NCBI RefSeq assembly: GCF_014641495.1
Contig: NZ_BMHV01000026.1
Location: 1 to 44,357 of the forward strand
Reading direction: 5' to 3'
Source: Terasakiella brassicae
Lineage (GTDB): Bacteria > Pseudomonadota > Alphaproteobacteria > Rhodospirillales > Terasakiellaceae
DNA: 44,357 nucleotides
Part shown: piece after piece, positions 23,750 through 26,187 of the stretch
Numbering within the stretch: the stretch's first letter is position 1
Layout of the letters: each line of letters begins with the position of its first letter
Made by a program: the position numbers and the translations under genes
The notes under the pieces: generated by a model
Told to the model about the DNA's origin: nothing
Database searches by the model: none
What the model saw: the letters and a program-made list of their open reading frames with translations, nothing else

Positions 23750-23763
23750 TTGATAAATCGCAA
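23750..23763 (+). promoter_or_regulatory. Degenerate CRP/FNR-type element upstream of the octaheme operon
   Basis: TTGATAAATCGCAA combines an FNR half-site (TTGAT) with a CGCAA half-site. It sits inside a 19-base block (23747-23765) repeated with one mismatch at 26054-26072. A second half-site TTGATCTAA follows at 23774-23782, and the ATG is at 23856. Possible regulators are FNR or an NnrR-like CRP/FNR member; this is inference from the motif only. Confidence 0.4.
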
Positions 23764-23855
23764 TGTGAATTAGTTTGATCTAATTTATCCTTATCGTCGA
23801 AAATACCATTAGTCCCGAAAAAATCGGGCATTGAATTACAGACGGAGGATATTTC

Positions 23856-25406
23856 ATGTCAATAAAACGCATCTTTGGATGCGGTGTGTTTGCATGGCTA
23901 TTGATGATGACGCCCGCATGGGCGGCGACCAAGGATAAAACATCGACAGCCGATCACACCCAATTCAAACAGCTTCAAAAAGATTTTCAAACCGGGCCGG
24001 AGGTCACAGCCGCCTGTCTGGAATGTCATACCGAAGCGTCCAAACAACTGGAAAAAACAACCCACTGGACCTGGCAATTCGATCATATGAACGGTCAAAA
24101 ACTCGGCAAACGCGAGGTGGTCAACAGTTTTTGCGGAAGCGTTGCGTCAAACGAGCCACGCTGCACAAGCTGTCATATCGGGTACGACTGGACCGATATG
24201 CGCAAAGACCATCCGGCCGGAACCAACGTGGACTGTCTGGTCTGTCACGACACCACCGGGATTTATAAAAAACTCCCCGCCGGGGCCGGGCACCCCAAAT
24301 ACGGGCCGGAGCTTGATTTAAAAAAAATCGCACAGAATGTCGGGGAAACATCGCGCGCAAACTGCGGGGCCTGCCATTTTTACGGTGGTGGCGGTGACGG
24401 GGTAAAACATGGCGATCTGGATAGCTCCCTCGTCAATCCACCCAAGGAACTGGACGTTCATATGTCCAAGGACGGGGCCAATTTCACCTGTGCAACCTGT
24501 CACAATCCAAAAGGCCATGATGTCCCGGGCTCACGGTTTGAAACGACAGCCAAGGATACCAAAGGGATTGATATTGCCAGCGCAGATTATAAAGATCATG
24601 CCACATGCGAATCCTGTCACGGCATGACACCCCATAAATCCGAAGCCAAATTGAACGACCATACAGACAAAGTCGCTTGTCAAACCTGCCATATCCCCGA
24701 ATTTGCCCGTGGTGGTGTGCCGACCAAAATGTGGTGGGACTGGTCACAGGGCGGCAAAATGAAAGACGGCAAACCCTATGCCATCAAGGATGATCACGGT
24801 CACGATATCTATAATTCCAAAAAAGGTGATTTCAAACTGGCGGAAAACGTCATACCTGAATATGCATGGTTTGACGGTAAAATGCGTTATACCCTGCGCA
24901 GTGAAAAAATCGACGATGCCAATCCGCCCGTGCCGATCAACACCTTCGGCGGTTCATACGATGACCCCAATGCCCGCATCTGGCCTTTCAAGGTTATGCG
25001 CGGCAAGCAACCTTATGATAAAGAGCTCAAAACCTTCCTCGTCAATCATGTGTTTGGCAAGGATGATACGTCTTTCTGGACAAACTTCGATTGGCAAAAG
25101 GCCTTAACCGCCGGAACCGAGTATGCCGGACAACCCTATTCCGGTCATTATGGATTTGTGGAAACCACCTATCACTGGCCACAAACCCATATGGTTGCCC
25201 CCAAAAGTGATGCGCTTCGATGTGATGACTGTCATGCCAAAGACGGGCGATTGGCGGGCCTGAACGGTTTCTACATGCCTAGGCGCGATCAATCCGATGT
25301 ATTGGATATGCTGGGCTTTATTATGATCGGTTTAACCGGTACAGGCGTTGCCGTTCACGGTGTATTACGTCTCGTACTGCGCCGCAAAGACAAGAAGGAG
25401 GGATAA
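23856..25406 (+). CDS. Octaheme c-type cytochrome, tetrathionate reductase (OTR) family, with C-terminal membrane anchor
   Basis: A 516-residue protein with signal peptide (cleavage after AWA at about residue 23) and exactly eight CxxCH sites, beginning at C54, C103, C127, C170, C212, C251, C275 and C456. The segment VNSFCGSVASNEPRCTSCH and the Lys in GVKHGDLD (K184, candidate lysine ligand of the active heme) match the octaheme tetrathionate reductase family. Those enzymes reduce tetrathionate and, in vitro, nitrite and hydroxylamine. Residues about 483-507 form a helix followed by basic residues, so the protein should be tethered in the inner membrane with its hemes in the periplasm. The soluble Shewanella enzyme lacks such an anchor as far as I recall. 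GGAGG lies 7 bases before the ATG. The cytochrome b gene follows at once. Confidence 0.9.
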   Translation: MSIKRIFGCGVFAWLLMMTPAWAATKDKTSTADHTQFKQLQKDFQTGPEVTAACLECHTEASKQLEKTTHWTWQFDHMNGQKLGKREVVNSFCGSVASNEPRCTSCHIGYDWTDMRKDHPAGTNVDCLVCHDTTGIYKKLPAGAGHPKYGPELDLKKIAQNVGETSRANCGACHFYGGGGDGVKHGDLDSSLVNPPKELDVHMSKDGANFTCATCHNPKGHDVPGSRFETTAKDTKGIDIASADYKDHATCESCHGMTPHKSEAKLNDHTDKVACQTCHIPEFARGGVPTKMWWDWSQGGKMKDGKPYAIKDDHGHDIYNSKKGDFKLAENVIPEYAWFDGKMRYTLRSEKIDDANPPVPINTFGGSYDDPNARIWPFKVMRGKQPYDKELKTFLVNHVFGKDDTSFWTNFDWQKALTAGTEYAGQPYSGHYGFVETTYHWPQTHMVAPKSDALRCDDCHAKDGRLAGLNGFYMPRRDQSDVLDMLGFIMIGLTGTGVAVHGVLRLVLRRKDKKEG

Positions 25407-25410
25407 AACC

Positions 25411-26022
25411 ATGACACGTGTTTTGATGTACAAACGATTTGAACGGTTCTGGCACTGGTCACAGGCTGCCCTTGTCCTCGCCCTTGCCTTCACTGGATTT
25501 AACATCCACGGCACCTTTACAGTGTTGAGTTATGAACAAGCCAGCGAAGTCCATACCACCTTGCTATGGGCCTTGCTGGGATTATGGGCCTTTGCGATTT
25601 TCTGGCATTTCACGACAGGGGAATGGAAAAACTACATTCCAACCACTGAGAAGATGGCGGAAGTGTTTCGTTTCTACACCATCGGCATTTTCAAAGGCGA
25701 AGAACATCCTTATGAAAAAACACCGGAAAAGAAACTGAACCCCGTGCAACGGATCGCCTATCTGGGATTAAAACTGGTGCTTAACCCGGGACTGATTATT
25801 TCCGGTTTGCTGTATCTGTTTTACAACCAGTGGCCGGAGATCGTCACCCAAATCCTGACACTGGAAATCGTCGCACTGGTTCATACCGCCTTTGCCTTCT
25901 TCATGGTGTCTTTTGTCATCTTGCATGTCTATCTGATCACCACCGGGCATACGGTCGGCGCACATTTAAAAGCAATGGTCACAGGCTATGAAGATATCCA
26001 TGACAAGACACCTGCTGAATAA
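25411..26022 (+). CDS. Cytochrome b561-type membrane subunit, quinol-oxidising partner of the octaheme cytochrome
   Basis: A 203-residue protein with four membrane helices. Candidate heme b ligands are His residues in RFWHWSQAAL, NIHGTF, EVHTTLLWAL, FWHFTTGEW and VHTAFAFFMVSFVILHVYL. The pattern matches the thiosulfate-reductase/Ni-hydrogenase cytochrome b family. The start is the ATG after the strong site AAGGAGGGA; the frame remains open further upstream inside the cytochrome c gene. It most likely takes electrons from the quinol pool and feeds the octaheme protein, forming a membrane reductase. Confidence 0.88.
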   Translation: MTRVLMYKRFERFWHWSQAALVLALAFTGFNIHGTFTVLSYEQASEVHTTLLWALLGLWAFAIFWHFTTGEWKNYIPTTEKMAEVFRFYTIGIFKGEEHPYEKTPEKKLNPVQRIAYLGLKLVLNPGLIISGLLYLFYNQWPEIVTQILTLEIVALVHTAFAFFMVSFVILHVYLITTGHTVGAHLKAMVTGYEDIHDKTPAE

Positions 26023-26056
26023 TTTCAAAAATTATGAGAGGGATAAAAATTAGAAA

Positions 26057-26070
26057 TTGATAATTCGCAA
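26057..26070 (+). promoter_or_regulatory. Degenerate CRP/FNR-type element before a candidate small RNA
   Basis: TTGATAATTCGCAA lies within a 19-base block (26054-26072) that matches 23747-23765 in 18 of 19 positions. A TATAAA that could be a -10 box is at 26096-26101, 39 bases from the first base of the element, slightly farther than ideal for class II activation. The element stands 32 bases after the cytochrome b stop codon, where no downstream plus-strand gene exists before the terminator. Confidence 0.4.
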
Positions 26071-26106
26071 TGCCACAGCGTAGAAAAATTGCCAGTATAA
26101 AGGCAC

Positions 26107-26187
26107 CTCGCTGAAGCGGCATCCCTCCTTTCAGCATGCACTGATCTCGCCCTCTTTCGGCCCAGTATCCGAAAGAGGGCTTTTTTT
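26107..26187 (+). ncRNA. Candidate small RNA with anti-Shine-Dalgarno loop
   Basis: A possible transcript of about 80 bases, from the predicted start after TATAAA (26096-26101) to the strong terminator at 26149-26187. Hairpin 1 pairs GCTGAA (26110-26115) with TTCAGC (26130-26135) and exposes the loop GCGGCATCCCTCCT. ATCCCTCCTT in this loop is the exact complement of AAGGAGGGAT, the ribosome-binding region of the cytochrome b gene just upstream. Loops with CCUCC motifs are known in alphaproteobacterial small RNAs. It could alternatively be just the 3' untranslated region of the cytochrome operon, or be processed from it. Confidence 0.42.
26149..26187 (+). terminator. Strong rho-independent terminator
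   Basis: The arms GCCCTCTTTCGG and CCGAAAGAGGGC are perfect over 12 bases, with an 8-base loop and a run of seven T residues. It terminates plus-strand transcription, either read-through from the octaheme operon or the candidate small RNA. The minus strand has no T run, so it does not serve the convergent tautomerase gene. Confidence 0.95.

Follow-up and report, generated by a model that had tools for sequence, protein, structure and literature searches.

Does the DNA that follows a cytochrome b gene in the marine bacterium Terasakiella brassicae carry a small RNA (sRNA) gene of its own, or is it the 3′ end of the operon that precedes it? The question was posed for one contig of 44,357 nucleotides (G000:C26, hereafter “the window”) from a genome of 3.64 Mb in 83 contigs. 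The gene order there is cobS (22327), a histidine phosphatase gene (23127), the genes for octahaem cytochrome c and cytochrome b, the element, a tautomerase gene on the other strand and a gene taken, from its protein sequence, to be pgk; the best named match of the latter is from Terasakiella pusilla DSM 6293 (87% identity). For comparison, six Terasakiella genomes were used, designated G000 (the window species) to G005. Coordinates of all features are given in Table 1.

Table 1. Features read or predicted in the window
Feature	Coordinates	Strand	Basis or remark
Second box copy (one mismatch) upstream of octahaem cytochrome gene	23750..23765	+	-10 TATCCT at 23786-23791
Octahaem cytochrome c, tetrathionate-reductase (OTR) family	23856..25406	+	TIGR04315, 633 bits vs cut-off of 375; PF11783
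Cytochrome b ribosome-binding site AAGGAGGGAT	25395..25404	+	Exact complement (10 bp) of loop ATCCCTCCTT (26121-26130)
Cytochrome b subunit adjoining octahaem cytochrome c	25411..26022	+	PF01292
FNR-like activator box TTGATAATTCGCAATG	26057..26072	+	14-bp half-sites TTGAT/CGCAA plus TG; degenerate box search
Predicted -10, CAGTAT	26093..26098	+	Class II distance, box centre at -41.5
Predicted small RNA, ~83 nt	26105..26187	+	5′ end inferred, 3′ end from terminator; covariance model R1
Hairpin 1, GCTGAA/TTCAGC stem presenting the loop	26110..26135	+	Sequence, fold, six-species comparison
CCCTCC anti-Shine-Dalgarno core, invariant, in the loop	26123..26128 (within ATCCCTCCTT, 26121-26130)	+	Six-species comparison, unpaired probability
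Rho-independent terminator	26149..26187 (12-bp stem 26149-26180, then seven T)	+	Terminator prediction; two-sided changes between species at 7 of 12 pairs

Structure and conservation of the element

Three components that had been called from the window alone were all recovered between 26057 and 26187: a CRP/FNR-like box after cytochrome b (read as TTGATAATTCGCAA at 26057-26070), a hairpin with CCCTCC in its loop, and a terminator with a 12-bp stem and seven T residues. Between 25900 and 26600, two terminator-like sites were found over both strands, compared with 0.4 in shuffles, and the one at 26149 is the only one on the + strand. The fold z-score of the element is -3.6, with 1 of 200 shuffles equally stable. 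By eye, no open reading frame is common to the copies that would suggest a coding role. No Rfam family reached its gathering score in the window; six matches below threshold were obtained at E values up to 10, the best scoring 20.3 bits of the 65 required.

The complete unit (box, -10, GCTGA(A/T) hairpin, CCCTCC loop and terminator) is present in all six Terasakiella genomes. Plain DNA similarity gave no convincing homologue across the genus, and taken alone would have made the element seem not to be conserved; searches by motif and by synteny found all six copies. Those in G001 and G003 were located through the box TTGATAATTCGCAATG, those in G002 and G005 through the region upstream of pgk, and that in G004 through the region following the phosphatase gene. 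An exact stem-loop pattern recovers five of the six and misses the G004 copy, which was found by reading the phosphatase region. Covariance model R1, built from three sequences (G000, G001 and G003), scores the remaining copies at 40.1, 35.6 and 29.8 bits; a genome-wide R1 search misses those of G004 and G005.

Conservation of loop and stem in relatives, which the initial annotation had proposed as a check, is borne out by an invariant loop and by compensatory changes. In the six-row alignment, which was fitted to the structure so that its pair counts lean towards it, 98.1% of 108 cells are paired and 8 of 18 pairs show two-sided changes, against 2.7 in shuffles and 0 to 4 with the partners slid (0 of 500 shuffles as high). 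Seven of these changes fall in the terminator and one in hairpin 1 (A-U to U-A in G004), so hairpin 1, with this one varying pair, is supported mainly by conservation of its sequence. MAFFT alignments A2, A3 and A6 placed the loop or the terminator wrongly and were excluded from the counts, and the G001 and G003 copies are near-identical within the element. Across the six species CCCTCC is invariant in loops that are different in other respects, while the stem of hairpin 1 varies only at that pair. No 6-mer other than CCCTCC occurs in all six loops, and none of 20,000 composition-keeping shuffles shared any 6-mer; no 7-mer is common to all six. CCCTCC has a mean unpaired probability of 0.64-0.65 in G000, G001 and G003 and 0.92-1.00 in G002, G004 and G005; in three species, part of CCCUCC may pair with GG inside the loop.

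Model R2, built from all six copies, was searched under strict filters over 317 genomes of the order, 311 of them outside the genus. The six copies score 63-88 bits, by construction since R2 was made from them, and everything else scores at most 44.6 bits. At E values up to 0.001 there were 48 matches, 38 of them from 31 genomes outside the genus. Each of the 38 was inspected and none has the FNR-like box, under a box rule that recovered the box in five of five true copies given to it. These matches look like terminators: 9 of 38 have CCTCC in the first 45 nt, and 2 of 38 have a box-like string with four mismatches. Conservation of the sRNA is thus shallow and, as far as the strict-filter search shows, it looks restricted to the genus.

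Several look-alikes were recorded separately. Outside the genus, loci L247, L256 and L258 (the last two from one genus, and alike) are terminator matches with CCTCC just upstream and no box, and may be unrelated CCUCC RNAs. The next best R2 match after the six copies (44.6 bits) is a terminator-like stretch where the cytochrome b gene of G001 ends (L121:1203-1284; G001:C5:10979-11059), with a hairpin CGCTGAA...TTCAG overlapping the stop codon; the likeness may be due to duplication or coincidence. Seven further R1 matches within the genus, on the minus strand, were rejected because they lack the box and their first 45 nt contain no CCTCC, among them L131 (G005) with a look-alike GCTGAA hairpin. 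Also rejected were five on the plus strand with no CCTCC, two of them with weak box-like strings at wrong distances, and the genus R2 matches L245 and L246, which were negative likewise. An exact pattern searched over the 317 genomes gave three matches (G002, G005 and G251); that in G251 has GC-rich surroundings with no box or terminator by eye. A structural scan of the collected loci returned, besides the Terasakiella copies, just two Hoeflea loci (L060 and L073), which differ in sequence and were set aside as unrelated.

The predicted promoter and its candidate activator

The degenerate box gave 34 matches in the six genomes, with one palindrome counted on both strands, compared with 1 for a reversed control; among the 12 of the 34 that were listed, several lie inside genes or are without a -10. 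A box search gave 36 sites, and a set of 16 was assembled for analysis. Thirteen of these come from the 15 sites that have no more than one mismatch, one is the sRNA site of G002 with its two mismatches, and the last two are the sRNA sites of G004 and G005, which had been located by other means. Of the 15, L030 (inside a gene) and L022 (oriented away from the octahaem gene of G004) were dropped, and 20 two-mismatch sites were left out. The chosen sites belong to six sRNA loci, six small-peptide loci, two octahaem genes, one DsrE gene and one gene for a SLAC1-type channel. A NANNNT motif was found at box position 37-42 in 13 of the 16 (next best offset, 5) and none of 5,000 shuffles reached 13 (maximum 8); note that these counts include orthologous box sites, which are not independent, although by eye the stretch separating box and -10 is not the same from one species to another. 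When all 15 sites with at most one mismatch were taken unselected, with L022 counted in the orientation facing away from the gene, NANNNT occurred at that offset in 11 (next best, 5). Going by sequence only, NANNNT stands at box+37 in all six sRNA loci.

A box centred at -41.5 occupies the position of a class II activator. From the box and the -10 at class II spacing, the start of the sRNA is predicted near 26105, a small shift from the 5′ end near 26107 given initially. The TATAAA noted with it does exist (26096-26101), but its role as the -10 passes to CAGTAT at 26093-26098, which fits the homologues. No sigma-70 -35/-10 pair was found at the sRNA promoter, which fits the expectation for a promoter that would depend on an activator. 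The TG at the end of the box reads TT in G002 and G005. A G004 box (L170:4299-4312), TTGCGAAATCGCAA, is a perfect palindrome apart from its centre, which suggests that TTGCG is a good half-site. Upstream of the octahaem gene, the box occurs in forward orientation in G000 and G001 only and reversed in G004 and in G002 (a poor match there); for the G005 octahaem gene, no box was found at up to three mismatches.

In all six genomes the box also stands at the end of a gene for a Crp/FNR-family protein, 9 nt past the stop codon in four, 6 nt past it in one and overlapping it in one. There it is followed by a short ORF for a peptide of ~33 residues with a single helix (MDxIAxxGxGGVVTTxxVxxGL...), seen in six of six genomes (in G002 by eye) at G000:C15 (L018/L158), L019, L020, L021, L023 and L028; the G000 peptide matched no Pfam family. 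The adjacent Crp/FNR protein aligns best with solved FNR-type regulators and has an E-x-x-S-R recognition helix, aligned with that of FNR, which we take to indicate FNR-type DNA recognition. Aligned to 9qlt/5cvr, the protein has Cys at three and Ala at one of the four positions that bind the cluster in FNR, and it scores 88 bits with NCBIfam Fnr, whose cut-off is 228; it is not FNR proper. Because of the Ala and of a score so far under the cut-off, this regulator is best described, going by its alignments, as a distant FNR relative of uncertain signal. The window genome has 12 matches over the Pfam cut-off for Crp-type HTH domains. At least two of the proteins concerned, L153 and L160, are rich in cysteine and have similar helices, and the box could be bound by another member of the Crp/FNR family; the assignment was therefore made by adjacency, by which the protein whose gene ends at the box in six genomes is the likeliest activator.

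Further box sites were noted. An identical box precedes a DsrE-like gene and a rhodanese-domain gene (L171:245-1379, G000:C50), which hints at a sulfur theme of the regulon. In G005 a box lies before a gene for a SLAC1-type channel (L029/L230, G005:C158), where the -10 does not match, and in G002 a correctly phased box, found after the 16-site count, lies before a dCache_3 sensor gene (L222, G002:C2). A broader scenario, which we regard as unlikely, would have a dedicated Crp/FNR regulator without one FNR cluster cysteine, perhaps sensing sulfur or another redox cue in place of oxygen, run a small regulon. Its members, each in at least one species, would be the octahaem cytochrome, DsrE/rhodanese proteins, the SLAC1-type channel and the 33-residue membrane peptide. 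An sRNA mimicking the 16S tail, retained by all the species compared, would be the constant repressing arm and would throttle the cytochrome operon where the two are adjacent.

The cytochrome operon as a possible source or target

Only in G000 and G001 is the octahaem cytochrome operon placed between the phosphatase gene and the sRNA. In G002, G004 and G005 it is on contigs other than that of the sRNA, and in G003, a single contig, no relative of cytochrome b was detected at E values up to 1e-10. From this distribution the operon seems to have moved in or out beside the sRNA. The operon is not upstream of the sRNA in four of six genomes, and in G003 the unit stands intact between the divergent genes ftsK and pgk. 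The phosphatase gene (cobalamin-related) is another frequent neighbour: the box starts 5 nt after its stop codon in G004 and, by eye, close after its apparent end in G002 and G005. The element might on that account be a conserved terminator with an upstream hairpin that serves the phosphatase operon, with the box acting elsewhere. We consider this very improbable, given that the G003 element is not behind a phosphatase gene and that a terminator needs neither an invariant CCCTCC loop nor a phased box and -10.

The two options named in the initial annotation, an independent stress- or oxygen-responsive sRNA and a 3′UTR-derived RNA that feeds back on the operon, did not fare equally, and cross-species comparison supports a transcription unit of the sRNA's own. 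An independent sRNA is the most likely of the readings because G003 has the RNA without a detected operon and because the G001 cytochrome b gene is followed, ahead of the box, by a terminator-like hairpin with a T run. For the window, the + strand from the cytochrome b stop up to 26149 has no predicted terminator-like site, so that read-through would include the element and the operon mRNA may also carry the sRNA as its 3′UTR; in this species a primary RNA and operon read-through are both possible. That the element is no more than the 3′UTR and terminator of the operon, with or without a processed NarS-like sRNA feeding back on cytochrome b, is unlikely. Such an origin would agree with the read-through and with the ribosome-binding site (RBS) match, which is 10 bp in G000 and 8 pairs in G001, but it leaves aside the terminator-like hairpin ahead of the G001 box, the divergent ftsK upstream and the missing cytochrome b match in G003, the separate contigs in G002, G004 and G005, and the phased activator box before the sRNA in all six genomes.

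The complementarity between loop and cytochrome b RBS reported initially is exact over 10 bp (AAGGAGGGAT with ATCCCTCCTT). The 10-mer has 8 copies in the 3.64-Mb genome, one of them the sRNA itself, compared with 3 for a reversed-pattern control. Only the cytochrome b copy is followed at 12-24 nt by a start codon that opens an ORF of more than 50 amino acids; of three other copies re-examined, one is 16 nt before a 24-aa ORF and one is 8 or 11 nt before a 57-aa ORF. Pairing of each loop with the cytochrome b RBS of the same species was calculated at -18.6 (G000), -16.9 (G001), -11.9 (G002), -11.0 (G004) and -12.9 (G005) kcal/mol, and is strongest in G000 and G001, where operon and sRNA are neighbours. 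Among 41 window ORFs ranked for loop pairing, by a crude procedure with crude choice of starts, cytochrome b is second.

Read together with the boxes that precede both operon and sRNA in G000 and G001, this pairing would suit an incoherent loop, in which one activator drives the operon and an RNA that silences its second gene, so that the sRNA would mainly tune cytochrome b; PcrZ in Rhodobacter acts in such a loop (PMC8139620). We nevertheless judge this quite unlikely. The sRNA is kept in G003, where no cytochrome b gene was found, with a loop identical to that of G001 around CCCTCC, so that maintenance of the RNA in that genome cannot be due to the match; G002, G004 and G005 have a remote operon and weaker pairing; and even in the window one ORF ranks above cytochrome b. 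Since the loop is kept where the gene was not found, the cytochrome b match looks secondary from these comparisons, and pairing with that RBS did not hold up as the main function. Feedback on cytochrome b is possible as a secondary effect in the window species. No target of the sRNA conserved among the species was found.

The element is thus probably an independent gene for a trans-acting small RNA, with a Crp/FNR-type class II promoter and a CCCUCC loop that would block Shine-Dalgarno sites. What the genomes show in its favour is a promoter geometry, a structure, a loop and a terminator that are conserved, together with occurrence where the cytochrome operon was not detected; its expression, the identity of the activator, the signal, repression by Shine-Dalgarno pairing and the targets are what we infer. 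In the proposed mechanism, a Crp/FNR-family activator would bind TTGATAATTCGCAATG centred at -41.5 and recruit polymerase to the promoter, which has no consensus -35, and transcription would run from near 26105 to the terminator ending at 26187. The RNA would display the invariant CCCUCC in its hairpin loop, which would pair with GGAGGG-type Shine-Dalgarno sequences and block translation of selected mRNAs. Within the regulon, the octahaem cytochrome operon would belong to the activated arm, and the sRNA would form the repressing one. A respiratory operon that comes to lie next to a ready-made Shine-Dalgarno-blocking RNA could come under its control. A guess from a single sequence has in this way become a testable unit: a predicted sRNA that recurs in six genomes of the genus, whose start is placed by prediction to one or two bases and for which an activator and a seed of six bases are proposed.

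Comparison with known small RNAs

The CcsR1-4 RNAs of Rhodobacter sphaeroides have CCUCC-type loops. They and the Terasakiella sRNA would both be alphaproteobacterial regulatory RNAs, the latter differing as a single gene with its own terminator. No paper combining Terasakiella and “small RNA” was found, and among the titles listed none describes this RNA. NfeR1 is a CCUCC-type loop RNA that silences mRNAs by RBS occlusion (PMC10746234), and NfeR1/alpha-r14, SmelA075 and SmelA099 of the Rhizobiales present a conserved anti-Shine-Dalgarno motif in hairpin loops on divergent stems (PMC10746234, PMC3927594). The Terasakiella RNA resembles these as an alphaproteobacterial sRNA with such a motif displayed in a hairpin loop. 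Those RNAs carry CCUCCUCCC in three or four hairpins, whereas a single hairpin with CCCUCC plus a terminator is found here, and NfeR1 is controlled by LsrB and NtrC, in contrast to the Crp/FNR box of the Terasakiella gene.

Among FNR-linked RNAs, NarS derives from the 3′ end of the narK mRNA (PMC8139620). It is likewise associated with FNR and located at a respiratory gene, but the Terasakiella sRNA has a predicted promoter of its own and occurs without the neighbouring gene. PcrZ of Rhodobacter sphaeroides, likened here by description and not by sequence, differs in its photosynthesis targets and in control by FnrL that may be indirect. FnrS of Escherichia coli is a trans-acting sRNA that belongs to the FNR regulon and represses many mRNAs (PMC8139620), and the Terasakiella sRNA would likewise be a repressing arm. 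No sequence relation to FnrS was seen, as the window gave no Rfam match at gathering score; the Terasakiella gene has a distant relative of FNR as its presumed activator and a single CCCUCC loop as its presumed seed. If the proposal is right, a Crp/FNR-controlled anti-Shine-Dalgarno RNA would be added to those of the Alphaproteobacteria, one that joins two known designs, control of the FnrS type and a seed of the CCUCC type.
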